A stretch of 64,000 nt of DNA from Flavobacterium sandaracinum (GTDB taxonomy: Bacteria > Bacteroidota > Bacteroidia > Flavobacteriales > Flavobacteriaceae). The DNA lies in contig NZ_SMFN01000001.1 of the NCBI RefSeq assembly GCF_004349135.1, forward strand, positions 310,001 to 374,000, read 5' to 3'. Below the pieces are notes generated by a model, which was given only the letters and a program-made list of their open reading frames with translations, was not told the DNA's origin and did no database searches. Each line of letters starts with the position of its first letter. The stretch's first letter is position 1. Positions 15,059 to 30,604 of the stretch are shown here, piece by piece. Both the position numbers and the translations under genes were made by a program.

Positions 15059-17101
15059 TTATTTTTTTATAATTTTTTTACTGGTAAAACCTTCTTCATT
15101 GTATACCGTTATGAAATAAATACCAGGAGCATAAGTACTTACATCCAGATTGACATTATCTGAATTTGTTTTTACTTCTTGTACTAAAGCACCTAAAATA
15201 CTAAACAATTTAACTCCAGTCATGGATTTATCAGCTTGTATGGTTACGCTATGGGTAACTGGGTTGGGATAGATCATGAGGGATGCTGATGCTAAAAATG
15301 ATGGATTAGACAAGGCATCGCTAGTTGAAGCTACCCAACTTGAAGCCAAGTTATTATCTAACGTTGTACTGATCAGTTCCAGATAACTACCGCCACCATC
15401 AGGTGAAGTTGGCCATGGTGCTGAATCAAAATATTCTACGGAATCAATTGTATTTCCATCTGCATCCGCCAGAACAATTTTTTGCGATTTATTTGATAAA
15501 TTTCTCGTGAACTGACCAAAAGGAACTGTACCATATTTACTTTGAAAAGTAGCCGCATTGCTTGTTAAAAAAATGGTTTCATTTGCTCCAATAGTTGAAT
15601 TGTAAGGAAACTGAAAAGTGAGTCCTAACTGTCTAAAATACACACCGGAAAGATTGACAGACCGATCACTTATGTTCTTTAAGGCTACAAATTCTAAATC
15701 ATTACTGACTGGAAAATCTGTTGCTGTTTTTGGATTGTAGTTAATTTTAGTAATTACTAGCGGTGGTACCGTAACATTGGCACAATTTGAAAATGAGCCT
15801 ATATTATTTGTGATCCAAGTCGTTCTATCGTTAATAAAGGTTTTAATTCTATTTACATCCGTAACATGATCGTTTATAGTTCCCCATCTTTGACTCTCGC
15901 GAGGAATAGCTTCGCTTATGTAGCTTAAAGCAGTATCAACATAGGCAATCAGAACGTCTTTATTTAAAGGCTGACCTGATCCGTTGAGTTCGTTCCAACG
16001 TTTTGCAAGCTGACAATTGAATTCTCCGTTGTCAAATAAGTAACTCCAAAAAGGGGGTCCAACTCTATTCCCGTTATTAAACTGCCATTTATCAACATGG
16101 CTACTGTTGGTAAAAGTACTTCCAAAACTCTGATTGAAATCCCATACCGGTCCCGCCCGCAGTTTTCCTGCACGGTCTTTATGAAAAAAAGTACTGGACT
16201 GATACACATCCGCATTAGAAGCCAACTCATTGACCAACATAAAATCAACGAAGGAAGGAACATCAATAATAGTGCGGTATCCGTCTATTAAGTCATTATC
16301 ATAAGCATGGTCTTGCAATCTATTGAATTCCGCTTCAATATACTGTGTTTGCTCTGGTGTGGCATTTTCAGGCTTAGGTAAATCATGAACAAATTTAGTT
16401 TCGTCCATCCAGAAAGCGACAGGATCTCCACCGGTTGTTTTATCCGCTTTTGTGATATAGCCTCCGGTTATATTTGGCAAAGTATTGTCCGTAACTTCAA
16501 TTTTTAGTACGTTAACCCTATTTTCATTGGATTTAATTTTTTCCTGAAAAACATAAAGCCCTTTGTAATCCCCATTGATAACGACTTCACAAAATTCTGT
16601 TTTGGATGCGTAATTCCCCAATTGTCTTGACATGAAATAGCACAAATAATCCCTAACTAAGGAAGGATCAAAACCCAGTCCATTCAATATCCAATCGTTC
16701 TCACTTGGCATCCCAAAAATACTCACGTTATTATTAGACGTATTATCCGACTTCAAAGTAGTTAAACTATATTGTTTTTTGGGTAGCGTTTGCGTAGAAG
16801 AACCTCTTATTTCGATACCAATTCGACCGCTATAATTTAAAAATGAAGTCGTATTCTGATCCGTAAGGAAATTTCTAGTCCCATCTGGTCTCTTGATAAT
16901 TTTCATCGTTGCCAAAATTTTAGGATCATCCAAAATTTCAAGAGGCAAATTAGTATTGGGATCATTATCTGTCGTAATAATGACAATAGGTAGATTACTA
17001 TCGGTAAAAGTTTGAGCCATCACAGAATTAGAAGTAATCAATACAATCAACAAAATGATTGTTGAAATTGTATGCAGCCGAGTAATGTACAATTTTTTCA
17101 T
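15059..17101 (-). CDS. secreted CotH-kinase family protein with LTD and type IX sorting domain
   Basis: About 680 residues from the ATG at 17101, chosen because it gives a proper signal peptide (MKKLYITRLHTISTIILLIV ... VMAQ); an upstream ATG at 17149 would add 16 residues. The CotH domain spans about 100-440 with IEIRGSSTQTLPKKQYSL, EFCEVVINGDYKGLYVFQEK and the metal-binding GPVWDFNQSFGS. A lamin-tail-like domain follows (about 450-590: NDLEFVALKNISDRSVNLSG). The C-terminal 75 residues (MIYPNPVTHSVTIQADKS to FTSKKIIKK) form a type A type IX sorting domain. CotH proteins are protein kinases in spore coats; the extracellular target here is unknown. Confidence 0.9.
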   Translation of the reverse strand: MKKLYITRLHTISTIILLIVLITSNSVMAQTFTDSNLPIVIITTDNDPNTNLPLEILDDPKILATMKIIKRPDGTRNFLTDQNTTSFLNYSGRIGIEIRGSSTQTLPKKQYSLTTLKSDNTSNNNVSIFGMPSENDWILNGLGFDPSLVRDYLCYFMSRQLGNYASKTEFCEVVINGDYKGLYVFQEKIKSNENRVNVLKIEVTDNTLPNITGGYITKADKTTGGDPVAFWMDETKFVHDLPKPENATPEQTQYIEAEFNRLQDHAYDNDLIDGYRTIIDVPSFVDFMLVNELASNADVYQSSTFFHKDRAGKLRAGPVWDFNQSFGSTFTNSSHVDKWQFNNGNRVGPPFWSYLFDNGEFNCQLAKRWNELNGSGQPLNKDVLIAYVDTALSYISEAIPRESQRWGTINDHVTDVNRIKTFINDRTTWITNNIGSFSNCANVTVPPLVITKINYNPKTATDFPVSNDLEFVALKNISDRSVNLSGVYFRQLGLTFQFPYNSTIGANETIFLTSNAATFQSKYGTVPFGQFTRNLSNKSQKIVLADADGNTIDSVEYFDSAPWPTSPDGGGSYLELISTTLDNNLASSWVASTSDALSNPSFLASASLMIYPNPVTHSVTIQADKSMTGVKLFSILGALVQEVKTNSDNVNLDVSTYAPGIYFITVYNEEGFTSKKIIKK

Positions 17102-17149
17102 AATTTTATTTCTTATTAAATTAAAGTATAAATTTAATAAAAAATACAA

Positions 17150-17523
17150 TACAATGTGTTGATAATCAATTATTTATGAAAAATAATGCCTATCAAAATA
17201 AAACTAAATTTTATGCTTTTAGGATAAGACTTCAAGTGCCTTTAGCAAGGCTGTTTTCAATACAAAAACAAGTACGCAACGATCTCAATTTTGGCTTTTG
17301 AGAATAATAGTGGGTTGCGAATAGACAAACTTTCCACTGCCCTATTTTGATTCACCATAAAATATAAATACTACAGGCCATAGGAGATAACAGCTAATAC
17401 GCTACATGGTTCCCATTTATCAACGAGATGCAATAATTTTTACAACACTATAAATATAATCTATATAATTGAAAATCAGTACATTTACATACTTGTTTAT
17501 TTTAATTTTTTAAATTGATACTT
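17150..17523. other. gene-free intergenic stretch
   Basis: About 370 bp between the divergent CotH-kinase and phosphoribosyltransferase genes. No small gene or structured RNA was recognised. It must hold both promoters, but no clear TAnnTTTG box was found. Confidence 0.5.
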
Positions 17524-18159
17524 ATGGATAACGAACTATTAAAAGACAGATTAGAAGCGGGCTTACTACTCTCCAAGAAACTAAAAAAATACAAAAATAC
17601 AGATAGCGTAATCCTCGCCGTTCCTCGAGGAGGAGTTCCCGTGGGAAACAGCCTTGCAAAAAACTTACATCTTCCCTTAGATATTGTACTCTCAAAAAAG
17701 ATTGGGCATCCCTACAATAAAGAATTTGCCATTGGTGCAGTTTCCTTAAATTCAATTAGTATTGACCGTGATCACAAAATTCCTCAAAAGTACATTGATG
17801 CTGAAATCATCCGGCTCCAAGAGTTCCTACGAGGAAAATATGAATATTATAGAGGCGCTCAACAACCGCTGGACATGGAGAACAAAAACGTAATCTTGGT
17901 AGATGACGGGATTGCTACCGGAAATACATTACTAGCCAGTATTGCGATGCTACGAAAAAAAAATCCAGCAAAAATAATCGTTGCCGTTCCCGTTTTGCCC
18001 TATGAAATGGTATCGGTCTTTAAAAAAAATGCTGATGAATTAGTCTATTTAATCGCTTCCAAAGATTTTTCAGGAGTTAGTAGTTTTTATGAACTTTTCG
18101 ATCAAGTAGAAGATGAAGAAGTAATCCAGCTATTGAGCACTAGTAATCCAACCGCATAA
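17524..18159 (+). CDS. phosphoribosyltransferase family protein
   Basis: A 211-residue type I phosphoribosyltransferase fold. The PRPP-binding motif is VILVDDGIATGNTLLAS (about residues 122-138), and the N-terminus has VILAVPRGGVPVGNSLAKNL. This matches the stand-alone phosphoribosyltransferase family (often 210-230 residues) whose substrate is usually unknown. The ATG at 17524 is preferred to a TTG three codons upstream. The gene stands alone, with 312 bp to the next gene. Confidence 0.85.
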   Translation: MDNELLKDRLEAGLLLSKKLKKYKNTDSVILAVPRGGVPVGNSLAKNLHLPLDIVLSKKIGHPYNKEFAIGAVSLNSISIDRDHKIPQKYIDAEIIRLQEFLRGKYEYYRGAQQPLDMENKNVILVDDGIATGNTLLASIAMLRKKNPAKIIVAVPVLPYEMVSVFKKNADELVYLIASKDFSGVSSFYELFDQVEDEEVIQLLSTSNPTA

Positions 18160-18471
18160 TGCAAGCGAACGGTCGTGAATAGAACTCAATAGAAAATACC
18201 GCCATTATGCTAAACAGGAACACTGAAAGGAGGGGTACTTTTCTACCCTCAATACGGCAGAATTTTTATTTTAACCCCTTATTTTGGCGACAGCAGATGA
18301 AGTAGCAACCACAAAACCGTAGCAGCACCGATACAATAAAACAGAAGATTTGATAGCAGACTGAACAGCCAGAGTAATCTATTCTTTGCCTGTTAGCCAC
18401 ATAAGTACAACTACAAACACAAAGGACTTCTATTTTTTTTTATATTTGACAGTAAGAAAATAACATTCTAA
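18160..18471. other. intergenic stretch with nitroreductase promoter
   Basis: No coding frame was recognised. TATATTTG at 18441-18448 is a strong -7 box 23 nt before the nitroreductase ATG, giving a leader of roughly 15 nt. No matching TTG at -33 is obvious. Confidence 0.55.
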
Positions 18472-19155
18472 ATGGCTGATAAAAAAATAATTGACAACTA
18501 TCCTTATATTCATTACAACACACCCGTTCTTTCTGAGCCAGAGATGATAGAACGTTCCCTTTCTTTTTATGAAATAATGGACCGTAGGCGTTCTGTAAGG
18601 GAGTTTTCAGACCGATCAGTTCCTAAAGCAGTAATTGAAAACCTGATAAAAACGGCTTCAACGGCTCCTTCTGGCGCACACAAACAACCTTGGACTTTTT
18701 GTGTGATTGAAAATCCCGAAATTAAAAAACAAATTCGCATCGCTGCGGAGCAGGAGGAACTTCAAAGCTATGAATCTCGCATGTCAAGTGACTGGTTGGA
18801 TGATCTAAAACCCTTAGGGACCGATTGGCACAAACCCTTTTTAGAAACCGCACCTTACCTCATCGTCGTTTTTAAACGCAGCTATGAATTGGATGTTGAT
18901 GGCAACAAGAAGACCAACTATTATGTTCAAGAAAGCGTGGGTATTGCCGTTGGTTTTTTATTATCTGCCATTCATAACGCGGGTTTAGTCTCGTTGACCC
19001 ACACGCCTAGCCCAATGAATTTCTTAACCAAAACGCTAAAAAGGCCCATCAATGAAAAACCTTTTTTACTTATTCCTGTTGGTTACCCTGCAGAAGACTG
19101 CTGGGTTCCGGACATACAAAGAAAAGACCTTGCGGCCATATCCGTTTTCTATTAA
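18472..19155 (+). CDS. nitroreductase family flavoprotein
   Basis: A 227-residue FMN-dependent nitroreductase-fold protein. FMN-binding features are MDRRRSVREFSDRSVP (about 37-52) and TASTAPSGAHKQPWTF (about 63-78). C-terminal LKRPINEKPFLLIPVGYPAE is typical of the subgroup related to BluB and iodotyrosine deiodinase. It probably reduces a nitro, quinone or halogenated aromatic compound using NAD(P)H; the substrate cannot be read from sequence. It is 37 bp upstream of the dienelactone hydrolase gene and probably co-transcribed. Confidence 0.9.
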   Translation: MADKKIIDNYPYIHYNTPVLSEPEMIERSLSFYEIMDRRRSVREFSDRSVPKAVIENLIKTASTAPSGAHKQPWTFCVIENPEIKKQIRIAAEQEELQSYESRMSSDWLDDLKPLGTDWHKPFLETAPYLIVVFKRSYELDVDGNKKTNYYVQESVGIAVGFLLSAIHNAGLVSLTHTPSPMNFLTKTLKRPINEKPFLLIPVGYPAEDCWVPDIQRKDLAAISVFY

Positions 19156-19192
19156 TTGAAACAAAAGCATCCCTTTATATAAAACTAGCACT

Positions 19193-20086
19193 ATGAAAAA
19201 AATAACCAAAGAAGACATCAGTCAAGAAGTATTTGACTTGTACGATGATTATGCACACAATAAAATTGACCGCCGTAGCTTTGTCGAAAAACTATCTCTA
19301 TTTGCTGTAGGCACACTCACACTGCCTTCGCTACTGAGTTTTATGACGCCCAATTATGCGGATGCCGTGCTCATAAAACCCGAAGATCCTAGAATAAAAT
19401 CTGGATTTATTACCTATGATTCGCCCAAAGGTGGCGGAACAATTAAAGGACTTTTATCCCAACCCACGGGTACCAAAAAGAAAGTACCGGGAATCATTGT
19501 TGTGCATGAAAACCGAGGATTGAATCCCTATATTGAAGACGTAGGACGCAGAGCAGCTGTAGAAGGATTTATCACTTTGGCACCAGATGCCTTGTCGCCA
19601 TTGGGTGGTTATCCCGGAAATGATGATGCGGGACGCGAAATGCAAAAAAAACGAACTCGAGAGGAAATGCTCGAAGACTTTATTGCCGCCTACAACTATC
19701 TCAAAGCCCACAAGGATTGCAACGGACACATCGGTGTAGTAGGATTTTGTTTTGGAGGTTGGATTGCCAATATGATGGCGGTTAAAATCCCGACTTTGGG
19801 CGCTGCCGTTCCGTACTATGGAGGCCAACCCACAGCAACCGAAGCCGAACTCATAAAAACGCCTATCCTAGCCCAATACGCTAGCTTAGATACGCGTGTC
19901 AATGAAGGTTGGCCCGCGTATGAAGCCATCCTTAAAAAGAACAAAGTACACCACACTGCTTATTTTTATGAAGGCGTGAACCATGGTTTTCACAACAACA
20001 CCACGCCACGCTATGATGACAAAGCCGCTACTTTATCTTGGGAACGTACCATTGCGTTTTTTAAACAAGAACTCAAAAAAAAGTAA
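19193..20086 (+). CDS. dienelactone hydrolase family protein with Tat-like signal
   Basis: A 297-residue alpha/beta hydrolase. Residues 1-60 carry DRRSFVEKLSLFAVGTLTLP, an RR-x-F-x-x-K twin-arginine-like signal placed after a 26-residue leader. The catalytic triad is visible as Cys in VGFCFGGWIA, Asp in YASLDTRVNEG and His in GVNHGFHNNT. This is the YghX-type dienelactone hydrolase layout. It probably hydrolyses a lactone or ester outside the cytoplasm; the substrate is unknown. It forms a probable operon with the nitroreductase and ends at a strong terminator. Confidence 0.9.
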   Translation: MKKITKEDISQEVFDLYDDYAHNKIDRRSFVEKLSLFAVGTLTLPSLLSFMTPNYADAVLIKPEDPRIKSGFITYDSPKGGGTIKGLLSQPTGTKKKVPGIIVVHENRGLNPYIEDVGRRAAVEGFITLAPDALSPLGGYPGNDDAGREMQKKRTREEMLEDFIAAYNYLKAHKDCNGHIGVVGFCFGGWIANMMAVKIPTLGAAVPYYGGQPTATEAELIKTPILAQYASLDTRVNEGWPAYEAILKKNKVHHTAYFYEGVNHGFHNNTTPRYDDKAATLSWERTIAFFKQELKKK

Positions 20087-20103
20087 AAATATACGGTTTG
20101 ATG

Positions 20104-20138
20104 AAAAAGTGGAAAGGTAATGTTTCCACTTTTTTTTT
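20104..20138 (+). terminator. rho-independent terminator
   Basis: AAAAAGTGGAAA (20104-20115) pairs perfectly with TTTCCACTTTTT (20123-20134) around a 7-nt loop, followed by further T residues. It ends the nitroreductase/dienelactone hydrolase transcript. Confidence 0.9.
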
Positions 20139-20166
20139 GTTAAATTTCCTAATTTATGGATTTCCG

Positions 20167-20174
20167 TATATTTG
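20167..20174 (+). promoter_or_regulatory. -7 box for the Nudix-helicase pair
   Basis: TATATTTG matches the Bacteroidota TAnnTTTG -7 element, 46 nt before the Nudix ATG. A TTG at the ideal -33 distance is not clear. Confidence 0.5.
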
Positions 20175-20219
20175 TTAGCAGTGGATTTTGTAATATTGAA
20201 AATCAATACAACGTGAACT

Positions 20220-20621
20220 ATGCTAGAAAAATCGACTATTAATGTAACCTGTGCCATCATTTTTTTTGATCAAAAAATTCTAGTTACACAAAGAAGTGAA
20301 ACCATGAAATTACCATTGAAATGGGAATTCCCTGGAGGAAAATTAGAAGATAATGAGACAGAAGTTGATTGTATCAAAAGAGAAATAAAGGAAGAAATAA
20401 ATATTGATATTGAAGTTTTAGAGAAACTATCAAGTAGTATTTATAATTACGGAACATTTCAAATTAAATTAATCCCATTTCTCGCAAATTTTGTTTCAGG
20501 TGAAATAAAACTTACTGAACATAAAGAGTACAAATTATTAAATAAATCTGAATTAAGGAATTTAGATTGGGCTGAGGCAGATAAACCTATTGTTGAAGAA
20601 TTATTAAAGTTAGAAATATGA
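20220..20621 (+). CDS. Nudix hydrolase (MutT/CTP pyrophosphohydrolase-like)
   Basis: A 133-residue Nudix hydrolase. The Nudix box starts at GGKLEDNETEVDC and runs into IKREIKEEINID, fitting Gx5Ex7REx2EE; the usual glycine after the glutamates is replaced by asparagine. WEFPGGK before it is typical of MutT-like enzymes that cleave (d)NTPs. It overlaps the helicase gene by 4 bp (ATGA), so the two are translationally coupled. A role in cleaving a nucleotide signal or modified nucleotide for the helicase is inferred. Confidence 0.9.
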   Translation: MLEKSTINVTCAIIFFDQKILVTQRSETMKLPLKWEFPGGKLEDNETEVDCIKREIKEEINIDIEVLEKLSSSIYNYGTFQIKLIPFLANFVSGEIKLTEHKEYKLLNKSELRNLDWAEADKPIVEELLKLEI

Positions 20622-23600
20622 ATCAAGGATTATATGAAGAGTTAGTAACTAAACTAATAAGTAATAAGTTGAGTGAATTAGATAAAAACACTTTTCAAGT
20701 TAAAACTACATCAATTGATAAAGCGGAAGCTGCACAGTTATTATCTGCACATATTGGAAAAACAATTCGACATGCTTTTACTTTGATAAAAGGCGATAAT
20801 ATTTTGGAAAACCAAATTGAAATCGCTAACAAAATCATTTTATTTCTAAAAGATGAATTAAAGAAAGAGGAGTTTAAAGATGACTTAATTGAAACGGAAG
20901 GTAAAATATTAAACGCAGTTTTTACTAAAATAGATGCACATTTTACAGATTTAGATTTGCATCTCAAAGAAATCACACCTTACACAAGGTTAATTCATAG
21001 TGAACTTTTTACTGGCGGAAATTCAGGTACTACGCTTGAAAGTGAGTTGAGAAAAGAAATTTTGTCATCTGATAGAATAGATTTATTAGTTTCATTTATA
21101 AAATGGAAAGGAATTAGGATACTAGAAAAAGAACTTAGAGAATTTACAACTAGAGGCGGAAAGCTTAGAGCAATAACAACAACATATGTTGGGGCTACCG
21201 ATGCAAAAGCTGTTGAACTTTTAGCATCATTAGAAAATACAGAAGTTAAGATTTCATACAACACAGGAAATGAAAGATTGCACGCAAAAGCTTATTTATT
21301 TGAGAGAAACACAGGTTTTCATACTGGTTATATTGGTTCGTCTAATTTTTCTCGATCTGCTTTGACAGATGGTTTAGAGTGGAATTTAAAAATCACCACA
21401 AAGGAAGTTAGTCACATAATTGATAAATTCAGAAAAACATTTGAAGCATATTGGCAAAATTCAGAATTTGAATTATTTGATAAAAATAAGGATTCTGAAA
21501 AATTAGTTAAAGCATTAAAAGACGGAAAATTTTCAAAAGATTATACTCCAAATAGTATTTTCTTTGATATAAAACCGTTTCATTATCAACAAGATATACT
21601 TGAAAAGTTAGAAGTTGAAAGAACAGTTCATAATAGATTTAAGAATTTATTGGTTGCCGCAACTGGAACTGGAAAAACAGTTATTTCAGCATTTGATTAT
21701 AAAAGTTTCAGAGCAAATAACAAATCGTCAAGACTGCTCTTCGTAGCACATCGAAAAGAAATATTACAACAAGCAAAAGCCACTTTTCAAGGTGTTTTAA
21801 AAGATAATAATTTTGGCGAATTATGGGTAGATGGCCTAGAACCCGCTAGCAATGAATATGTTTTTGCATCAGTTCAAACTTTAAATAACAGACTGAAAAA
21901 CATTAATCTTTCACCCGAATATTATGATTTTATAATTGTTGATGAAGTTCATCATATTTCTGCATCTACTTATAGACCAATATTAAATTATTTTAAACCA
22001 AAAGTATTATTAGGATTAACAGCGACTCCTGAGAGAATGGATGGAGAAAATATTTTAGATGATTTTTGTGGTCGAATAGCAGCAGAAATAAGACTTCCAG
22101 AAGCATTAAACAAAAAATTATTATCACCTTTTCAATATTTTGGAATTACTGATAGTATTGATTTAACGAATGTAAAATGGGAAAAAGGAAAGTATGTCGC
22201 TAGTGAATTGACAAGTTTGTACACCAAAAATAATGTTCGAGTTGGTGAAATTATTAGAGGACTTGAGAAATATTTAAATGATATTAATGATGTTCGTGCA
22301 ATAGGATTTTGTGTCACCGTTGAACATGCTGTTTTTATGACTGAAAAATTTAATCTAGCTGGCCTAAAAGCTGAAGTTTTAACCAGTAAAAATTCAAGTG
22401 ACAGAGAAAAAATAAGAGAACAATTTAAAAAGAAAGAATTCAATTATTTATTTGTTGTAGATATTTTTAATGAAGGTGTTGATATTCCTGAAATAGATAC
22501 CGTTTTGTTTCTTCGTCCAACAGAAAGTTTAACCGTTTTTTTGCAACAGTTAGGACGTGGATTGCGTTTAGCAGAAGGTAAAGATTGTTTGACCGTTTTA
22601 GATTTTGTTGGTAATTCACGACCTGAATATGATTTTGAAAATAAATTTAGAGCATTAATAGGAAAAACAACAACGTCAGTTCTTAAAGAAATTGAAGATG
22701 ATTTCCCGCACTTACCTTTAGGTTGTTCAATAGTTTTGGAGAAAAAAACTAAAGAAACAATTTTAGAAAATATTAAAAGAGCAACGACTCTGAATGTAAA
22801 TCAGTTGATTACCAAAATTACTAATTATCAGCATCAAACTAACCTGCCATTAAAAATTCAGAATTTTATTGAATTATACAATATTAAATTGGAAGCCATT
22901 TATAAAAAAGATAGTTGGTCAAGGCTTTGTGAAAGAGCAGGAGTTATTGATAATTTTGATAATTTGAATGAAAAGCAAATTCTTTCTGCAATAAGTAAAA
23001 AATGGCTTTCATCAAGTTCAACAAGCTATTTCAATTTTATTTTAAAACTAGCTAAAAAGGAGTTTAAAGTTAGTATAAATGATTTTGATGAGAATGGAAA
23101 GACTATGTTGTTGATGTTGCATTATGATGTTTGGCAAAATGCAGGCGATTTTAAATCTTTAGATGAAAGTATTAATCAAATTGGAAAGAATAAAATTTTA
23201 GTAAAAGAAATTATAGAAGTTTTAGAGATTTTAATTGATAGAATTGACTTCAAAGAAATAGACATTAGTTTACCATATAAGCAACCATTAAAAGTTCATG
23301 CTAGATATACAAGAGATCAAATTTTAACTGCTTTTGGTCTAAGTACTTTTCATAAAAAATCTTCTAGTAGAGAAGGTGTCGCAGAAAATGTTAATTTAAA
23401 GACAGAACTTTTATTTGTTAATCTTATCAAATCTGAGGAGAATTTTTCACCAACCACAATGTATGATGATTACGCAATAAGTGAAACTTTATTTCATTGG
23501 CAGAGTCAGAATTCATCTAGGCCAGATTCAGGTAAAGGCTTATCATATGTCAAACATATAGAAAATGACAAAAAGATTTTACTTTTTATAAGAGAAAAAG

Positions 23601-23758
23601 CAAATGATGAAAATGGAAATACTATGGGTTATGTTTTTATTGGTGAAGCAAATTTTGCAGCAACAGAAGGTTCTAAACCAATGAATATAAAATGGGAATT
23701 AAATGAACCAATGCCCAATTATCTTTGGAAAGAGTCCGCTAAAATGTCTGTTGGATAA
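20618..23758 (+). CDS. PLD-nuclease/SF2 helicase/DUF3427 fusion protein
   Basis: A 1046-residue protein in three parts. Residues about 120-285 are a PLD-family nuclease-like domain: HAK (222-224), Glu229 in place of the usual Asp, and GSSN (240-243) form the HKD-type motif. Residues about 315-660 are a superfamily 2 helicase with AATGTGKT (347-354), DEVHH (442-446), LTATPERMDG (about 467-476) and QLGRGLRL (about 644-651). Residues about 670-1040 fit DUF3427. This is the PLDc_N_DEXD type, probably acting on DNA as a nuclease-helicase. Coupled to a Nudix gene, AT-rich and next to a carB remnant, it looks horizontally acquired; antiviral defence is the leading guess. Confidence 0.9.
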   Translation: MNQGLYEELVTKLISNKLSELDKNTFQVKTTSIDKAEAAQLLSAHIGKTIRHAFTLIKGDNILENQIEIANKIILFLKDELKKEEFKDDLIETEGKILNAVFTKIDAHFTDLDLHLKEITPYTRLIHSELFTGGNSGTTLESELRKEILSSDRIDLLVSFIKWKGIRILEKELREFTTRGGKLRAITTTYVGATDAKAVELLASLENTEVKISYNTGNERLHAKAYLFERNTGFHTGYIGSSNFSRSALTDGLEWNLKITTKEVSHIIDKFRKTFEAYWQNSEFELFDKNKDSEKLVKALKDGKFSKDYTPNSIFFDIKPFHYQQDILEKLEVERTVHNRFKNLLVAATGTGKTVISAFDYKSFRANNKSSRLLFVAHRKEILQQAKATFQGVLKDNNFGELWVDGLEPASNEYVFASVQTLNNRLKNINLSPEYYDFIIVDEVHHISASTYRPILNYFKPKVLLGLTATPERMDGENILDDFCGRIAAEIRLPEALNKKLLSPFQYFGITDSIDLTNVKWEKGKYVASELTSLYTKNNVRVGEIIRGLEKYLNDINDVRAIGFCVTVEHAVFMTEKFNLAGLKAEVLTSKNSSDREKIREQFKKKEFNYLFVVDIFNEGVDIPEIDTVLFLRPTESLTVFLQQLGRGLRLAEGKDCLTVLDFVGNSRPEYDFENKFRALIGKTTTSVLKEIEDDFPHLPLGCSIVLEKKTKETILENIKRATTLNVNQLITKITNYQHQTNLPLKIQNFIELYNIKLEAIYKKDSWSRLCERAGVIDNFDNLNEKQILSAISKKWLSSSSTSYFNFILKLAKKEFKVSINDFDENGKTMLLMLHYDVWQNAGDFKSLDESINQIGKNKILVKEIIEVLEILIDRIDFKEIDISLPYKQPLKVHARYTRDQILTAFGLSTFHKKSSSREGVAENVNLKTELLFVNLIKSEENFSPTTMYDDYAISETLFHWQSQNSSRPDSGKGLSYVKHIENDKKILLFIREKANDENGNTMGYVFIGEANFAATEGSKPMNIKWELNEPMPNYLWKESAKMSVG

Positions 23759-23788
23759 AGGCCTGAATTTATATATACTACAAACCCA

Positions 23789-23810
23789 AAAAGCCCCAAC
23801 CGGGGCTTTT
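23789..23810. terminator. bidirectional terminator
   Basis: AAAAGCCCC (23789-23797) pairs with GGGGCTTTT (23802-23810) around AACC. It closely resembles the terminator at 26709-26733 after the true carB and sits in the same place relative to the carB remnant, so the two were probably copied together. Confidence 0.9.
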
Positions 23811-23830
23811 CATTTATAATCCATTCAAGT

Positions 23831-23947
23831 TCATTTGCGCAACTGCTTTTTTATTCTAGAGTACCATTCGTAGAACTGATCGTCTTTAAGGTCACCAATA
23901 AACAAGATGCTTTCTCCTGTTGATTTTGTCTCTTCTTTTAAGTCTTT
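23831..23947 (-). pseudogene. remnant of a carB 3' end
   Basis: Read on the minus strand, this encodes KDLKEETKSTGESILFIGDL, continues KDDQFYEWYSRIKKQLRK and ends in a stop. The intact CarB ends MKSTGESILFIDDLKDD, then QFYELYSRRKMYLSK. About 25 of the last 32 residues match. The fragment has no start codon and is cut off by a TAA at 23948-23950. It is a decayed duplicate of the carB tail, on the same strand as carB and about 2.9 kb away, together with a carB-like terminator. Confidence 0.9.
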
Positions 23948-23989
23948 TTATCTCAAAAATATAACTCAAAAAGTAAGAAAGAATTTAAT

Positions 23990-23997
23990 TATATTTG
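23990..23997 (+). promoter_or_regulatory. possible -7 box for the metalloprotease gene
   Basis: TATATTTG matches the Bacteroidota -7 consensus about 95 nt before the ATG at 24093. No clear -33 TTG is present, so confidence is modest. Confidence 0.4.
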
Positions 23998-24092
23998 ATC
24001 GAACAATATAACCTTCAAAAATATATTGATTTATAAAAATGATTTCCAAGCACTTATACAAACGGCATTAATCAACAACAAAACAAACTATA

Positions 24093-26525
24093 ATGAAACT
24101 ACACGTACTTCGCTTTTTATTCTTACTGATTTTGGTTCCCTTTTATGCAAAGGCACAAACCGTATCGATCCCAGAAAAAACAAAAAACATGAAAGGCTAC
24201 ACTGGTTTCAAACCTTTTTACTGGGATGAAAGTACGGGTAAAATATGGCTACAAATTGATACATTTGATACCGAATTCTTGTATCAAACAGCGCTTTCAG
24301 CGGGATTAGGATCCAATGATGTTGGTCTCGACAGAGGTAAATTAGGCGCAACAGCAATTGTAAAATTTAGTCGAGTAGGCAACAAAGTTTTGATGATTCA
24401 ACCCAACTATTCCTATCGCGCCATTACAAATGATGCCGCCGAAAAAAGAGCGGTTGAACAGTCCTTTGCACAATCCATATTATGGGGATTCACAGTTGCA
24501 GCGGAAACTAGCGGAAGTGTTCTAGTAGATGCCACCGCTTTTTTCATGCGCGATGCTTTAAAAATAAGTGCTGTTTTACAAGCAAACAACCAAGGTACTT
24601 ATTCGCTTGATGAAACCCGCAGTGCCTTATACTTAGAACGCACGAAAAACTTTCCGCTCAATTCTGAATTTGAAACCACGATGACGTTTGTTAATAACAG
24701 TGGGAAATCTGGCAGCCATGTAAATACAGTAACCCCAAACAGTGAAGCCATAAGCCTGCGGATGCATCATTCATTTGTTGCCTTACCCGACAATAATTTT
24801 GAAACTCGTAAATATGATGCGCGTTCCCCTTACAATACTAATTCTTATTTTGACTACAGTACACCCGTTTCAGAACCCATTGAAAAAAACTTTATTAAGC
24901 GGCATCGTCTTGAGAAAAAAAATCCTTTGGCTGACCGAAGCGAAGCCATTAAACCCATTGTCTATTATTTGGACAATGGTACTCCGGAACCCATACGAAG
25001 TGCTTTATTAGAAGGTGCTAGCTGGTGGAATCAAGCTTTTGAATCAGCTGGATTTATAAATGCTTTTCAAGTTAAAATTTTACCTGAAGGAGCTGATCCA
25101 ATGGATCTTCGCTACAATATGATTAACTGGGTACACCGGTCAACTAGAGGCTGGAGTTATGGCTACTCCGTTCATGATCCCAGAACGGGTGAAATCCTAA
25201 AAGGAAATGTTAGTTTAGGTTCCTTGCGTGTCCGCCAAGATTATCTTATTGCACAAGGATTATTGGCTCCTTTTGAAAATGGCGATGTCCCTGCCGACGA
25301 TAAAATGCTGCAAATGTCTTTACAACGTTTAAAACAATTGGCTGCTCATGAAATTGGCCATACGCTGGGACTCATGCACAACTATATTTCAAGCGCACAA
25401 AACAGATCCAGTATTATGGATTACCCGCCACCAATGGTGACCTTAAACAGCAATGGCGAAATAGATCTCTCTAATGCCTACACCAATGAGATTGGGGACT
25501 GGGACAAAATCAGTATTCAATATGGATACACCCAATTTCCCAAAGGAACCGATGAGGCTGCAGCTTTAGATAAAATAATAGCGGATGCTACAAGCAAAGG
25601 ACTCACCTTTATCTCCGATCGTGATGCTCGTGATCCGGGAGGATTGCATCCTAATGTTCATTTGTGGGATACCGGAACTGATCCGGTAACAGAATTAAAA
25701 AGGGTTATGCAAATTAGAGCAAAAGCACTTTCAAAATTTGGAGAAAACAACATCCGCAAAGGTACTCCAATGGCTCTGCTTGAAGATGTATTAGTGCCTG
25801 TTTACTTGTTTCACCGCTATCAAGTCGAAGCAGCTACCAAAGTAATTGGTGGACAATATTATTCCTATGCCATAAAAGGCGATGGACAAATGATTACAAA
25901 ATCAGTTTCTAAAGAAGAGCAATTAAAAGCCTTGAATGAAGTGATCGCTACTATGGATCCAAAAGTATTAGCACTATCAGAAAACATACTAAAATTAATT
26001 CCGCCACGCCCGGTTAACTATGAGTATACCAGTGAATTATTCAACCGCAAAACGGGTTTGGCCTTCGACCCATTGTCCGCTGCCGAAGCTGCTACTGATA
26101 TTCCACTTTCATTTTTATTCCATACCAGCCGTCTGAACAGATTAGTTGAATATCAAGCAAAAAATGACGGTCTTGGTATTGATGATATGATTCAAGTTCT
26201 TACTACCAAACTTTGGAACGGACAAAAATCAGTAGGGTTAGAAGGATTGATACAACAACAAAACGAACAAATGCTGCTTACCTATTTGCTAGCCGTTTCG
26301 GTGAATGATAATGCCTCGTTTGCCACAAAAGCTGCCTTATTAAAAGCAATAGACGACCTCAAAACAAAGGTAACCGCCCAACTTAAAAAAACAAAGGACA
26401 GTACTCAAAAAGGATATTTACTGCTAACACTTGACCGAATTAAATCACCTGAAAAGGCAAAAGCAACGTTACATCAATCAGCGCCTCCAGGAGCTCCCAT
26501 AGGATGCGGTACGAATGAAAATTAA
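24093..26525 (+). CDS. secreted zinc-dependent metalloprotease (DUF5117/DUF5118 type)
   Basis: An 810-residue protein with a signal peptide (MKLHVLRFLFLLILVPFYAK, then AQ). The zinc site HEIGHTLGLMH starts near residue 419 and matches HExxHxxGxxH of metzincins, followed by a SIMDYPPP Met-turn-like segment. The flanking regions fit the large Bacteroidota zinc-dependent metalloproteases with DUF5117 and DUF4953-like domains. It probably acts in the periplasm or outside the cell; the substrate is unknown. It lies alone between the carB remnant and carB itself. Confidence 0.9.
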   Translation: MKLHVLRFLFLLILVPFYAKAQTVSIPEKTKNMKGYTGFKPFYWDESTGKIWLQIDTFDTEFLYQTALSAGLGSNDVGLDRGKLGATAIVKFSRVGNKVLMIQPNYSYRAITNDAAEKRAVEQSFAQSILWGFTVAAETSGSVLVDATAFFMRDALKISAVLQANNQGTYSLDETRSALYLERTKNFPLNSEFETTMTFVNNSGKSGSHVNTVTPNSEAISLRMHHSFVALPDNNFETRKYDARSPYNTNSYFDYSTPVSEPIEKNFIKRHRLEKKNPLADRSEAIKPIVYYLDNGTPEPIRSALLEGASWWNQAFESAGFINAFQVKILPEGADPMDLRYNMINWVHRSTRGWSYGYSVHDPRTGEILKGNVSLGSLRVRQDYLIAQGLLAPFENGDVPADDKMLQMSLQRLKQLAAHEIGHTLGLMHNYISSAQNRSSIMDYPPPMVTLNSNGEIDLSNAYTNEIGDWDKISIQYGYTQFPKGTDEAAALDKIIADATSKGLTFISDRDARDPGGLHPNVHLWDTGTDPVTELKRVMQIRAKALSKFGENNIRKGTPMALLEDVLVPVYLFHRYQVEAATKVIGGQYYSYAIKGDGQMITKSVSKEEQLKALNEVIATMDPKVLALSENILKLIPPRPVNYEYTSELFNRKTGLAFDPLSAAEAATDIPLSFLFHTSRLNRLVEYQAKNDGLGIDDMIQVLTTKLWNGQKSVGLEGLIQQQNEQMLLTYLLAVSVNDNASFATKAALLKAIDDLKTKVTAQLKKTKDSTQKGYLLLTLDRIKSPEKAKATLHQSAPPGAPIGCGTNEN

Positions 26526-26708
26526 ATAAAATGCATTGACATCAACCCGCTGGATGCAATTTGTTTTTCATCCTTCGAACTAGGAATCAAAGCTAAGTTT
26601 CAATTCTAGAGAGCGTAAAGTTGAAGTATAGTACTAATTAAACCAATTGAATAGATACCCGCGGATTAACACTATTGGGATACTATTTTAGAGTAATTAT
26701 TAAAACCC

Positions 26709-26733
26709 AAAAAAGCCCCAAACGGGGCTTTTT
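26709..26733. terminator. bidirectional terminator of carB
   Basis: AAAAAAGCCCC (26709-26719) pairs with GGGGCTTTTT (26724-26733), loop AAAC. It ends leftward transcription from carB and can also stop rightward readthrough from the metalloprotease gene. Confidence 0.9.
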
Positions 26734-26752
26734 CTATATTAAGAAGTCAAAC

Positions 26753-29605
26753 TTACTTACTCAAATACATTTTTCTTCTGGAGTACAATTCATAGAACTG
26801 GTCGTCTTTTAGGTCATCAATAAATAAGATGCTTTCTCCTGTTGATTTCATTTCTGGTCCTAATGCTTTGTTCACATTGTGGAACTTACTGAAAGAGAAA
26901 ACCGGTTGTTTGATGGCATATCCTTTCAATTGTGGGTTAAAAGTAAAATCAGTTACTTTATTGTGGCCTAACATCACTTTGGTTGCATAGTTTACATACG
27001 GTTCACCATACGCTTTTGCAATAAAAGGAACCGTACGGGACGCTCTAGGATTCGCTTCAATGATGTACACAATATCATCTTTTATCGCAAACTGAATGTT
27101 GATTAAACCAACGGTTCTCAATGCCAAAGCAATATTCTTCGTGTGGTCTTTTATTTGTTGCATCACAAATTCACCTAAGTTAAACGGTGGCAATGTCGCA
27201 TTACTGTCGCCAGAGTGCACTCCGCAAGGTTCGATATGTTCCATAATTCCTATGATGTACACATTTTCGCCATCGCAAATCGCATCGGCTTCGGCTTCAA
27301 TCGCACCATCAAGATAATGGTCTAAAAGCAATTTATTTCCTGGAATCGTTTTCAATAAATTGATTACGTGCTCTTCTAGTTCTTGTTTGTTGATTACAAT
27401 TTTCATTCCTTGACCACCCAATACATACGAAGGGCGAATCAATAATGGAAAATCCAAAACATCTGCTAAAGCAGAAGCTTCGTCGGCTGTTTCTGCGATT
27501 CCAAACTGTGGAAAAGGAATCTTCAAATCGGTTAACAATTCAGAAAAACGTCCTCTGTCTTCGGCTAAATCCAAAGCGTCAAAGCTCGTTCCTATAATTT
27601 TAATGCCATATTTAGAAAGCTTCTCAGCCAATTTCAAGGCGGTTTGTCCTCCTAATTGTACGATAACGCCTTCTGGTTTTTCGTGTTGGATAATATCGTA
27701 AATATGCTCCCAGAAAACCGGTTCAAAATACAATTTATCGGCCGTATCAAAATCCGTTGAAACCGTTTCAGGATTACAGTTGATCATGATGGTTTCATAG
27801 CCACATTCTTTGGCGGCAAGCACACCGTGTACACAAGAGTAATCAAATTCGATTCCTTGTCCAATTCTATTTGGGCCTGACCCAAGAACAATTATTTTCT
27901 TTTTATCCGTAACAACACTTTCGTTATCCACGTAACGCGTACCATCTGCTTTTTCAATTTCGGCTTCAAAAGTGGAGTAATAATACGGTGTTTTTGCTTT
28001 AAATTCGGCCGCACACGTATCTACCAATTTAAACACACGATTGATATTCATTGTAGTTCGCAACGTATGTACTTGGCTTTCTAGACAACCCATCATGTGC
28101 GCGATTTGTCTGTCGGCAAACCCTTTTTGTTTCGCTTCCAGTAACAATTCTCTTGGCAAAGATTCTACTTTATAGTTTGAAATCTCTTTCTCTAATGTAT
28201 ATAGTTCTTCGTATTGTTTCAAGAACCACATATCGATTTTAGTAATTTCATGAATGCGACTCAACGGAATTCCCATCGCGATAGCATCATAAATCACAAA
28301 AACACGATCCCAACTCGCAAAAGTCAGTTTCTCGATAATTTGTTCGTAGTTGGTATATCCTTTTCCGTCCGCTCCTAGCCCATTTCTTTTGATTTCCAAA
28401 GATTGAGTGGCTTTGTGCAAGGCTTCTTGGAACGAACGTCCAATTCCCATTACTTCCCCAACGGATTTCATTTGAAGTCCCAACGTTCTGTCAGCACCTT
28501 CGAATTTATCAAAGTTCCAACGCGGTATTTTTACAATCACATAATCCAAAGTCGGTTCAAAAAGTGCCGAAGTCGATTTGGTGATTTGGTTTTGCAATTC
28601 ATCTAAATTGTAACCTAAAGCTAATTTTGACGCAATTTTTGCAATAGGATACCCCGTTGCTTTTGATGCCAAAGCAGAGGAACGAGACACACGAGGATTG
28701 ATTTCGATAGCAACAATATCTTCTTTATCATCTGGCGAAACGGCAAACTGTACATTACAACCTCCGGCAAAATTACCAATGCTACGCATCATTAAAATAG
28801 CGTAATCACGCATTTTCTGGAATGTAGTATCTGATAAAGTCATGGCTGGTGCAACGGTAATCGAATCTCCCGTATGAATTCCCATGGGATCCATATTTTC
28901 GATCGAACAGATAATCACAACGTTGTCGTTTTTATCTCGCAACAATTCCAACTCATATTCTTTCCAACCCATTAACGCTTTATCAATCAACACCTCATGA
29001 ATAGGCGATGCTTCTAAACCTCTGGTTAAAAGTTCGTCAAAATCTTCTTTTTTATAGACGATTGCAGCTCCAGTACCACCAAGAGTAAACGAAGGACGTA
29101 TTACTAATGGAAAACCAAATTCCTGGGCTATTTCTTTTCCTCTAAGGTAAGACGTACATATTTCAGCTGGTGCGGAGGGAACACCTATTTTTTTAAGCAA
29201 TTGTTTGAACTGCTCTCTGTCTTCGGTAATATTAATAGCATTTACATCAACCCCTATTAATTTTACTCCAAAATCAGCCCAAATTCCTTTTTCATCAGCT
29301 TCCAAACACAAGTTCAAAGCCGTTTGTCCGCCCATTGTAGGCAAAACAGCATCGATTTGAGGATGTGCTTTAAGGATTTCAATGATTGATTTAGTCGTCA
29401 AGGGTTTCAAATAAATATGATCGGCCATGGATGGGTCGGTCATAATCGTTGCCGGATTGGAATTGATCAGGATAACTTCAATTCCTTCCTCACGGATCGA
29501 ACGAGCAGATTGTGATCCCGCATAATCAAATTCACATGCTTGACCAATAACAATAGGACCTGAACCTATTATTAAAACTGATTTTATGGATGTATCTTTT
29601 GGCAT
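26753..29605 (-). CDS. carB: carbamoyl-phosphate synthase large subunit
   Basis: A 950-residue enzyme making carbamoyl phosphate for pyrimidine and arginine synthesis from bicarbonate, ammonia and two ATP. Two ATP-grasp halves are visible: the first starts VLIIGSGPIVIGQACEFDYA with the site SFTLGGTGAA, and the second starts IIVLGSGPNRIGQGIEFDYS with SYVLGGQGMKIVI. E. coli CarB has about 1073 residues. This one stops after the second ATP-grasp half and lacks the C-terminal MGS-like allosteric domain, which is usual in Bacteroidota. carA is not in the window. Confidence 0.97.
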   Translation of the reverse strand: MPKDTSIKSVLIIGSGPIVIGQACEFDYAGSQSARSIREEGIEVILINSNPATIMTDPSMADHIYLKPLTTKSIIEILKAHPQIDAVLPTMGGQTALNLCLEADEKGIWADFGVKLIGVDVNAINITEDREQFKQLLKKIGVPSAPAEICTSYLRGKEIAQEFGFPLVIRPSFTLGGTGAAIVYKKEDFDELLTRGLEASPIHEVLIDKALMGWKEYELELLRDKNDNVVIICSIENMDPMGIHTGDSITVAPAMTLSDTTFQKMRDYAILMMRSIGNFAGGCNVQFAVSPDDKEDIVAIEINPRVSRSSALASKATGYPIAKIASKLALGYNLDELQNQITKSTSALFEPTLDYVIVKIPRWNFDKFEGADRTLGLQMKSVGEVMGIGRSFQEALHKATQSLEIKRNGLGADGKGYTNYEQIIEKLTFASWDRVFVIYDAIAMGIPLSRIHEITKIDMWFLKQYEELYTLEKEISNYKVESLPRELLLEAKQKGFADRQIAHMMGCLESQVHTLRTTMNINRVFKLVDTCAAEFKAKTPYYYSTFEAEIEKADGTRYVDNESVVTDKKKIIVLGSGPNRIGQGIEFDYSCVHGVLAAKECGYETIMINCNPETVSTDFDTADKLYFEPVFWEHIYDIIQHEKPEGVIVQLGGQTALKLAEKLSKYGIKIIGTSFDALDLAEDRGRFSELLTDLKIPFPQFGIAETADEASALADVLDFPLLIRPSYVLGGQGMKIVINKQELEEHVINLLKTIPGNKLLLDHYLDGAIEAEADAICDGENVYIIGIMEHIEPCGVHSGDSNATLPPFNLGEFVMQQIKDHTKNIALALRTVGLINIQFAIKDDIVYIIEANPRASRTVPFIAKAYGEPYVNYATKVMLGHNKVTDFTFNPQLKGYAIKQPVFSFSKFHNVNKALGPEMKSTGESILFIDDLKDDQFYELYSRRKMYLSK

Positions 29606-29710
29606 TGTATAAGTAGTATTGTGTTGTGTAGTTGTTATTTCAAAAGACTAAAGTTATGAAACTCAAATCTTTTACTTGTAAATCGCACTCTTTTTTTAAC
29701 GAATAGGTAT

Positions 29711-29743
29711 AAAAAAAGGCGATACTAAAAAAAGTAACGCCTT
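29711..29743 (-). terminator. terminator of rpmH
   Basis: AAGGCG-A-TACT (29716-29726) pairs with AGTA-A-CGCCTT (29733-29743). On the minus strand it is followed by T residues opposite 29711-29715. It lies 20 bp after the rpmH stop. Confidence 0.85.
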
Positions 29744-29762
29744 ATTTATGTTTATACAAACA

Positions 29763-29924
29763 TTATTTTTTGTGTCTTGGTTCGCAAGAAACAGTCAATT
29801 TATGTCTTCCTTTAGCTCTTCTTCTAGCAAGAACTTTTCTTCCATTCGCAGAAGCCATTCTGTCCATAAATCCGTGCTTATTTCTTCTTTTTCTTTTCGA
29901 TGGTTGAAACGTTCTTTTGCTCAT
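29763..29924 (-). CDS. rpmH: 50S ribosomal protein L34
   Basis: A 53-residue, very basic protein beginning [20 protein letters not shown] and continuing [20 protein letters not shown], the universally conserved L34 sequence, ending [12 protein letters not shown]. It is a component of the large ribosomal subunit. The start at 29924 gives the canonical MSKRT N-terminus. It sits upstream of carB on the same strand, separated by its own terminator. Confidence 0.98.
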
Positions 29925-30059
29925 TGCTTTGTATCTTTAAAATCTTATTTATATGTCTTCCTATTTTTGAATAACTGTTATTCTAAAACCGAGTGCAAAT
30001 ATACAAAGACTTTTTTTTCTCACAAGCCCTTTTGTAAAAATATTTTCAATTCATTTTAC

Positions 30060-30067
30060 TATATTTG
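30060..30067 (+). promoter_or_regulatory. -7 box for the TPR-like membrane protein gene
   Basis: TATATTTG matches TAnnTTTG, 21 nt upstream of the ATG at 30089, giving a short leader. Confidence 0.55.
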
Positions 30068-30088
30068 TGATCTTAAAATAAACACACT

Positions 30089-30604
30089 ATGTTTCACAGA
30101 AATATTAAACTTATTATCGCCGGACTTATTATTCTTACTGGCATTTGGCAATTCACAGAAAGCAATATCGGTAACGGAATATTCCTTCTACTATTAAGTG
30201 CAATTCCTATTTTCCTTTACTTCAAAAATGAATTCATCTTATTGGCGTTCTTAAAACTTAGAAAACAAGATTTTGAAGGCGCTAAAAAATGGTTGGCTTA
30301 CATCAAAAACCCGGAAACGGCTTTGGTACAAAAACAACAAGGTTACTTTAATTACCTGCACGGAATCATGCTTTCGCAAACGAATATCAATCAAGCGGAG
30401 AAATATTTCAAAAAAGCGATTGAACTGGGATTATCTATGGATATGGATTTGGCTGTTGCCAAATTAAACCTAGCCGGTGTAGCCATGACACGTCGCAGAA
30501 AATTAGAAGCTACTTCCTTATTGAACGAGGCTAAAAAATTAGACAAACAAAATATGCTGAAAGATCAAATTGTTATGATGAAAGAGCAAATGAAGAAAAT
30601 ATAA
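30089..30604 (+). CDS. small membrane protein with TPR-like C-terminus
   Basis: A 171-residue protein with two N-terminal membrane helices (about 6-24 and 28-46) and a helical C-terminal domain. That domain contains NINQAEKYFKKAIELGLSM and KLEATSLLNEAKKLDKQNM, which look like tetratricopeptide-type helix pairs. It is conserved-hypothetical in flavobacteria as far as I recognise it; no function is known. It is monocistronic, between rpmH (divergent) and a strong terminator. Confidence 0.75.
   Translation: MFHRNIKLIIAGLIILTGIWQFTESNIGNGIFLLLLSAIPIFLYFKNEFILLAFLKLRKQDFEGAKKWLAYIKNPETALVQKQQGYFNYLHGIMLSQTNINQAEKYFKKAIELGLSMDMDLAVAKLNLAGVAMTRRRKLEATSLLNEAKKLDKQNMLKDQIVMMKEQMKKI

Follow-up and report, generated by a model that had tools for sequence, protein, structure and literature searches.

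Why does the gene for a small Nudix hydrolase overlap the gene for a large nuclease-helicase protein in Flavobacterium sandaracinum? We analysed the pair within a window of 64,000 nucleotides (assembly GCF_004349135.1, contig NZ_SMFN01000001.1, positions 310,001 to 374,000; 'the window' means this whole stretch, and positions are counted from its first letter), where it is laid out as follows.

20220..20621, + strand: Nudix hydrolase gene, NudG-like, 133 residues (P0001), from open reading frame (ORF), Pfam, PADLOC, structure and tree comparisons
20618..23758, + strand: SauUSI-family type IV restriction enzyme gene, 1046 residues (P0002), from ORF, Pfam, PADLOC and PDB
20618..20621, + strand: ATGA stop/start overlap of the P0001 and P0002 genes, from sequence

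The original prediction for this locus described the ATGA overlap and the pairing of a Nudix enzyme with a 1046-residue fusion of a PLD nuclease, a superfamily 2 (SF2) helicase and DUF3427, all of which the ORFs, Pfam matches and motifs confirm. Its proposal of a two-gene defence module also stands: the pair is a coupled two-gene module that is accessory in its genus, PADLOC covers both proteins, by separate models, and the pair very probably serves defence. On balance, we favour a two-gene type IV restriction module in which a SauUSI-like nuclease is joined by a sanitiser of modified deoxycytidine triphosphate (dCTP) that guards the host DNA.

P0002 and the SauUSI family

20618..21040, + strand: N-terminal 141 residues of P0002, not covered by the sequence alignment to 7clg (the PADLOC model match begins at residue 119)
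21068..21454, + strand: PLD nuclease domain (PLDc_2), residues 151-279, from Pfam
21569..22036, + strand: N-terminal half of the SF2 helicase/translocase (ResIII), residues 318-473, with K353, from Pfam
22262..22570, + strand: C-terminal half of the SF2 unit (Helicase_C), residues 549-651, from Pfam
22958..23734, + strand: DUF3427, residues 781-1039, domain with a proposed role in recognising modified bases, from Pfam

Judged by sequence, P0002 joins the SauUSI family, whose type IV restriction enzymes depend on modified cytosine, as a new member. SauUSI carries a PLD nuclease, an SF2 helicase and a C-terminal DUF3427 in one chain, requires ATP and two sites, and cleaves DNA with 5-methylcytosine (m5C) or 5-hydroxymethylcytosine (hm5C) while sparing N4-methylcytosine (m4C) and glucosylated hydroxymethylcytosine (ghm5C) (PMC3874153); recognition of the modified base has been suggested as the role of DUF3427 (PMC3874153, PMC7159879). 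The architecture, previously called uncharacterised for this locus, is thus that of a type IV enzyme whose biochemistry and structure are known. The PADLOC model mREase_IV (type IV methyl-directed) matches residues 119-1043 of P0002 (E 9.5e-245), the top PDB sequence match is SauUSI 7clg (E 3.9e-79, residues 142-1014), and the same crystal structure ranks first in the fold search (1.6e-37; 22-24% identity); the AlphaFold 2 (AF2) model of P0002 is of moderate quality (predicted local distance difference test, pLDDT, 76.9; predicted template modelling score, pTM, 0.46).

The motifs of P0002 are HAK (222-224), GSSN (240), GTGKT (350-354, with K353), DEVHH (442) and QQLGRGLR (643). Five residues (H222, K224, N243, E254 and K353) are invariant across 18 aligned sequences, and the PLD residues (HAK, GSSN and Glu) line up with 7clg together with the Walker lysine. 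P0002 resembles Staphylococcus aureus SauUSI in its single-chain PLD, SF2 and DUF3427 arrangement and in its conserved HAK/GSSN/E residues, and both genes have a Nudix gene directly upstream, but P0002 has ∼120-140 N-terminal residues outside the match and a DUF3427 score of ∼1e-30, as against ∼1e-80 in SauUSI-proper loci. It lies in a diverged sister subfamily of SauUSI, for which base specificity is predicted by analogy. Several of the nearest named homologues, among the best 80 relatives, are from Flavobacterium.

The Nudix protein P0001

20334..20396, + strand: Nudix box (GGKLEDNETEVDCIKREIKEE), residues 39-59 of P0001, intact, from motif
20580..20582, + strand: codon of Asp121 of P0001, in the MutT Asn119 column, from alignment (Asp also in NudG, MutT2, 3gwy and 5x1x)

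P0001, with a Pfam Nudix domain at residues 11-127, is a NudG-like Nudix protein and, by analogy with its characterised relatives, probably a 5-methyl/5-hydroxymethyl-dCTP pyrophosphatase. It had been suggested to cleave either a nucleotide signal or a modified nucleotide; the likeness to NudG and 3gwy makes the second, in the form of a 5-modified dCTP, the more likely. The AF2 model of P0001 is confident (pLDDT 95.4), and its fold search places 3gwy (Bacteroides fragilis Q5LBB1) first, the RNA pyrophosphohydrolase BdRppH second and third, Escherichia coli Orf135 fifth, and Mycobacterium smegmatis MutT2 with 5-methyl-dCTP (5mdCTP) ninth, while by PDB sequence P0001 is closest to a MutT-type protein (5x1x, the best match), followed by a CTP pyrophosphohydrolase. 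The 3gwy enzyme acts on 5-Me-dCTP at 4.8e6 and on 5-hydroxymethyl-dCTP at 4.4e6 per M per s, with 5-OH-dCTP ∼50-fold slower and canonical NTPs much slower (PMC5158307). Besides being the top fold match and NudG-like, it has the C-terminal segment LDWAEADKPIV in common with P0001; it differs in being only 37-40% identical and in falling into another clade of linked Nudix genes. E. coli NudG/Orf135 and MutT2, which have the same Asp at the MutT-119 column, count 5-methyl-dCTP among their substrates (PMC5158307, PMC10742078), and the likely NudG substrates listed are 5-methyl-dCTP and 2-OH-dATP (PMC5158307). Unlike the P0001 gene, E. coli nudG sits between ynjF and ynjH, without linkage to a restriction gene.

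At the MutT-119 column, the linked or nearby Nudix proteins have Asp without exception (48 of 48), as against Asn in E. coli MutT and in a single MutT-like protein from a plasmid. We take this to be a base-side residue, at which Asp in place of Asn presumably has functional meaning. P0001 also scores under the MutT equivalog cut-off (TIGR00586, 75.9 vs 97.9) and, with Asp121, falls outside the MutT 8-oxo-dGTP class; its NCBIfam label, given below cut-offs, goes no further than MutT/NudG-like. The PADLOC candidate PDC-S07, which we take to be a lone candidate without a mechanism, matches P0001 over nearly the whole model (1.2e-49, 126 of 135 positions).

Recurrent linkage of the two genes

The S. 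aureus prototype has such a neighbour too. In an S. aureus record, the gene ending 1 nt before the SauUSI frame encodes 5x1x (126/126 compared residues identical), which is 46% identical to P0001 but deposited as mismatch repair MutT; the frame after it matches 7clg in four pieces of 25 residues, the SauUSI gene being broken in that record. Among helicases matching S. aureus SauUSI at >350 bits, 12 of 13 have a Nudix gene, the exception being Fusobacterium vincentii.

A DUF3427 match occurs in 47 of 395 Bacteroidota genomes. Leaving the window aside, 33 loci are full-length: a NudG-like gene lies immediately upstream in 17, there is none in 13 and a contig end is too near in 3, so that, window included, 18 of 34 full-length Bacteroidota homologues have an adjacent NudG-like gene and 3 are undecided; counting adjacency, as had been proposed for this pair, thus finds Nudix to be a common neighbour. 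In the reverse direction, 18 of the 22 Nudix matches >170 bits in the 395 genomes adjoin a DUF3427 gene, and the remaining four comprise two on other contigs of genomes with a contig-end DUF3427 gene and two elsewhere. The best 80 P0002 relatives from the species-genome collection (L113-L192) include 77 full-length loci, with the Nudix gene upstream in 16, downstream in 8 (7 of them Bacillota), nearby in 2, absent in 44 and undecided at a contig end in 7. In L159 (9122-9958), the Nudix downstream of the SauUSI-like gene forms a fusion with a GNAT acetyltransferase. On plasmids, 120 records match P0002, and the Nudix is next to the helicase in 5 (H16-H20) of the 13 neighbourhoods covered (H5, H6, H8, H10-H12 and H14-H20; H12, from Spiroplasma with another code, was judged from annotation). 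Coverage of the records matching 3gwy was 11 of 23, plus H72 and H73 via helicase matches.

On the helicase tree (115 sequences), Nudix presence changes at least 16 times when contig-end loci are left out. The helicases of L108 and L115 are 64% and 85% identical to P0002, yet the Nudix genes beside them are of another lineage, which clusters with 3gwy (98% by the Shimodaira-Hasegawa-like approximate likelihood ratio test, SH-aLRT, on a tree built on few columns); the 11 rows of this clade besides 3gwy are all linked to SauUSI-family genes. The position in these two loci has thus been refilled by another NudG-like gene. Both genes of the pair are under purifying selection relative to five close homologues, with nonsynonymous to synonymous rate ratios (dN/dS) of 0.06-0.10 for the Nudix and 0.07-0.09 for the helicase, at a dS > 1 that is near saturation.

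No common replacement gene was evident by eye in Nudix-less loci (58 listed neighbours, 6 Pfam-scanned). Only one of these loci (L171) has a MazG-like ORF; it lies 2.7 kb away from the helicase and overlaps a longer ORF on the opposite strand. Plasmids of the lactobacilli L. plantarum and L. fermentum carry a MazG-like gene 3' of the helicase, and the L. plantarum protein, the one of the two examined, matches RS21-C6 and dCTP pyrophosphatase 1 (DCTPP1) in the PDB, described as 5-methyl-dCTP hydrolases (PMC10742078). In L. plantarum the MazG-like gene is followed by one for a Schlafen-type helicase, with which it may belong instead.

Proposed function and alternatives

To our knowledge, type IV enzymes have no methylase, and their self-protection has been taken as simply not making the mark. 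In the module that we propose, P0002 would move along DNA as an ATP-driven SF2 translocase, its DUF3427 end would recognise 5-methyl- or 5-hydroxymethyl-cytosine, and its single-HKD PLD nuclease would cut the modified DNA, as SauUSI does. Modified cytosine arising from degraded methylated DNA or phage enzymes could be built into host DNA, which would then be cut by the cell's own restriction enzyme; P0001 would destroy 5-modified dCTP and so keep modified cytosine out. Should P0001 have 3gwy-like specificity, the pair would act on one base, in DNA (P0002) and as triphosphate (P0001). 5-methyl-dCTP is accepted by polymerases like dCTP, and degraded methylated DNA may supply it (PMC10742078). 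Such a guard against self-damage is the most likely role of the Nudix, with an attack on the phage pool of modified dCTP as its main rival.

The adjacency has already been drawn once: MutT homologues beside Streptococcus SauUSI homologues appear as small DNA repair proteins in a figure legend (PMC7641849). PMC7159879 treats Nudix separately from SauUSI, DUF3427 and modification-dependent restriction. In the open-licence literature searched we found no mechanism functionally linking SauUSI and Nudix, and we regard the pair as a type IV restriction system of variant form, in which a nucleotide-pool enzyme is the partner. If true, such protection would explain the MutT-like genes beside SauUSI genes and give the specificity measured for a Nudix enzyme in vitro a physiological role. 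It would also predict that SauUSI experiments in E. coli, a host with NudG, have depended on a hidden condition.

Several observations weigh against this function. P0002 is from a diverged subfamily, with the low identity to 7clg given above, and the high rank of BdRppH in the P0001 fold search means that fold alone cannot fix the substrate. Asp121, considered as a mark of helicase-linked Nudix proteins, was ruled out, since unlinked NudG-like genes have Asp too, and it is no marker of the pair. SauUSI functions in E. coli as a single polypeptide (PMC3874153); E. coli has its own NudG, so the need for a Nudix partner may be hidden there. No adjacent Nudix is found in 57 of 114 full-length homologues (the best 80 relatives included, and 18 loci with an absent or short helicase removed before the count), with 10 more too near a contig end; these 57 include 19 of 19 from Pseudomonadota among the matches listed, and the Nudix partner is thus accessory, not obligatory. 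A close orphan NudG (E <= 1e-25) is present in just 1 (G332) of 14 genomes with an unlinked full-length helicase, so the absence of an adjacent Nudix is not generally compensated.

The distribution of cytosine-5 (C5) methyltransferases is a further point. Were P0002 to target host m5C, these enzymes would be expected to be rare beside its family, and they occur in 1 of 8 same-genus genomes with the helicase vs 37 of 51 without (p 0.002, the species being related). Phylum-wide, however, the figures are 18 of 47 vs 161 of 348 (p 0.35), and Nudix-linked (6/18) and unlinked (5/14) genomes are alike, which again counts against the proposed function; mutual exclusion holds among same-genus genomes and fails phylum-wide. 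No C5 methyltransferase match was found in the window's genome, and no methylase families among the 8 neighbouring ORFs scanned (15059 to 30604).

In the main rival, which we judge rather unlikely, the Nudix is offensive: it would destroy the phage pool of 5-hydroxymethyl-dCTP or other modified dCTP and starve replication, with P0002 cutting whatever modified DNA was made. The comparable speed of 3gwy on 5-hydroxymethyl-dCTP and 5-methyl-dCTP (PMC5158307) suits such a role, as do gene surroundings that differ between the window and 12 sibling loci, in the manner of mobile defence genes: three window flank genes had no tblastn match beside the pair in those 12 loci, some of which have flanks in common with each other (e.g. 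L105 and L107). Removing modified dCTP would, however, reduce the modified target needed by the nuclease, and unlinked NudG-like genes occur in many helicase-free genomes, some in common chromosomal contexts (L195, L199, L202).

It is distinctly unlikely that P0001 is an ordinary MutT-type pool cleaner (of 8-oxo-dGTP or CTP) travelling with a restriction gene without joint function. The sub-threshold MutT/NudG-like label and the half of the homologues that lack an adjacent Nudix would fit a passenger, but repeated Nudix gain, two orientations, overlapping start codons and the swap of NudG-like lineages in place argue for a partner, and the Asp at the MutT-119 column in every linked or nearby Nudix argues against MutT. 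A Nudix that cleaves a nucleotide signal or NAD-type metabolite switching the nuclease on or off is highly improbable: Nudix domains are found in NAD-linked conflict systems (PMC7159879), but no cyclase or TIR family occurs among the 8 neighbouring ORFs scanned, and the best PDB and fold matches of P0001 (MutT-type, CTP pyrophosphohydrolase and 3gwy) point elsewhere. A plain DNA repair pair of RadD-like helicase and mutation-avoidance Nudix is equally improbable, since the RadD matches to the P0002 helicase core (NF053632, 124.9 bits vs a cut-off of 720; fold-search ranks 3-8) are far weaker than the full-length PLD, helicase and DUF3427 match to SauUSI, and the distribution is patchy, with a full-length family member in 6 of 37 same-genus genomes, the window's own included.

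Nudix and MazG genes beside other nucleases

A broader idea, which we raise tentatively, is that nucleotide-pool enzymes (NudG-like Nudix, DCTPP1-like MazG) may form a second, overlooked arm of modification-dependent restriction, removing the free triphosphate of the hunted base beside unrelated nucleases (the SauUSI family, SRA-HNH, perhaps other HNH and Schlafen-helicase) so that the host genome does not gain the mark by salvage. With 1.5 kb flanks, an adjacent Nudix was found in 1 of 8 loci with an SRA domain; McrBC, tried as a further Nudix partner, was rejected, with 0 of 24 loci having one within 1.5 kb either side of the McrC match. The extension beyond SauUSI thus rests on single cases.

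Genome G138 has a second NudG-like Nudix gene, in L206 (7792-9052), that shares bases with the end of a gene for SRA-HNH, another modified-cytosine-dependent nuclease family, and in L221 (76-2349; G381) a MazG-like gene, RS21-C6/DCTPP1-like by eye, starts an apparent operon in which an SRA-HNH nuclease is last. Fusions include a NudG-like Nudix with a Schlafen group 3 helicase in one 790-residue frame (L211, 7125-9497; G187) and with Vsr in Collinsella aerofaciens (L251, 4998-5987), Vsr being the endonuclease that acts in repair of the T:G mismatches left by deamination of 5-methylcytosine. A NudG-like gene lies directly before an HNH nuclease gene on plasmids of Priestia megaterium (L255, 4995-6202, 4 bp overlap) and Sphingomonas (L252, 4980-6337), the N-terminal part of both nucleases being without a Pfam match. 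On a Treponema saccharophilum plasmid (L249, 813-5417), a Nudix gene and the gene for an AAA_21 ATPase overlap near two cytosine-5 methyltransferase genes.

Flanking elements and genomic context

20103..20135, + strand: terminator-like hairpin 5' of the pair, at the end of the upstream hydrolase gene, from hairpin scan
20167..20174, + strand: TATATTTG, weak Bacteroidota -7-type element, 46 nt upstream of the pair
23787..23812, + strand, scored on both strands: terminator-like hairpin 3' of the pair, from hairpin scan

The pair had been credited with its own -7 box and flanking terminators. These elements are present. We assume a Bacteroidota consensus in calling TATATTTG a -7-type box, and the TANNTTTG pattern occurs 120 times in the window vs ∼101 expected, a frequency so near expectation that the box is weak evidence; a sigma-70 promoter scan was uninformative (27 found vs 20.7 +/- 4.1 expected). 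Terminator-like sites in the scanned stretch number 3 vs 1.3 +/- 1.3 in shuffles, an excess that is modest since 23787-23812 is counted on both strands.

The surroundings of the pair are an ordinary chromosome stretch, with genes for a phosphoribosyltransferase (PRTase), a nitroreductase, a YghX-type hydrolase, a Met-zincin and carbamoyl-phosphate synthase. The large subunit of the last (26753-29605) has 950 residues and is matched by a 1058-position model over positions 1-916 only, so its C-terminal part seems to be absent. The defence-island setting that had been envisaged is not seen: known defence genes gave no strong PADLOC match among the 8 neighbouring ORFs scanned, and there are only weak PRTase matches in gene 17515-18159 (ShosT 2.9e-5, PRTase_III-A 3.7e-4). 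Elsewhere, an McrC-type gene is present in the window's genome (G000:C45:194239-195198), which may therefore carry a second m5C-directed system.

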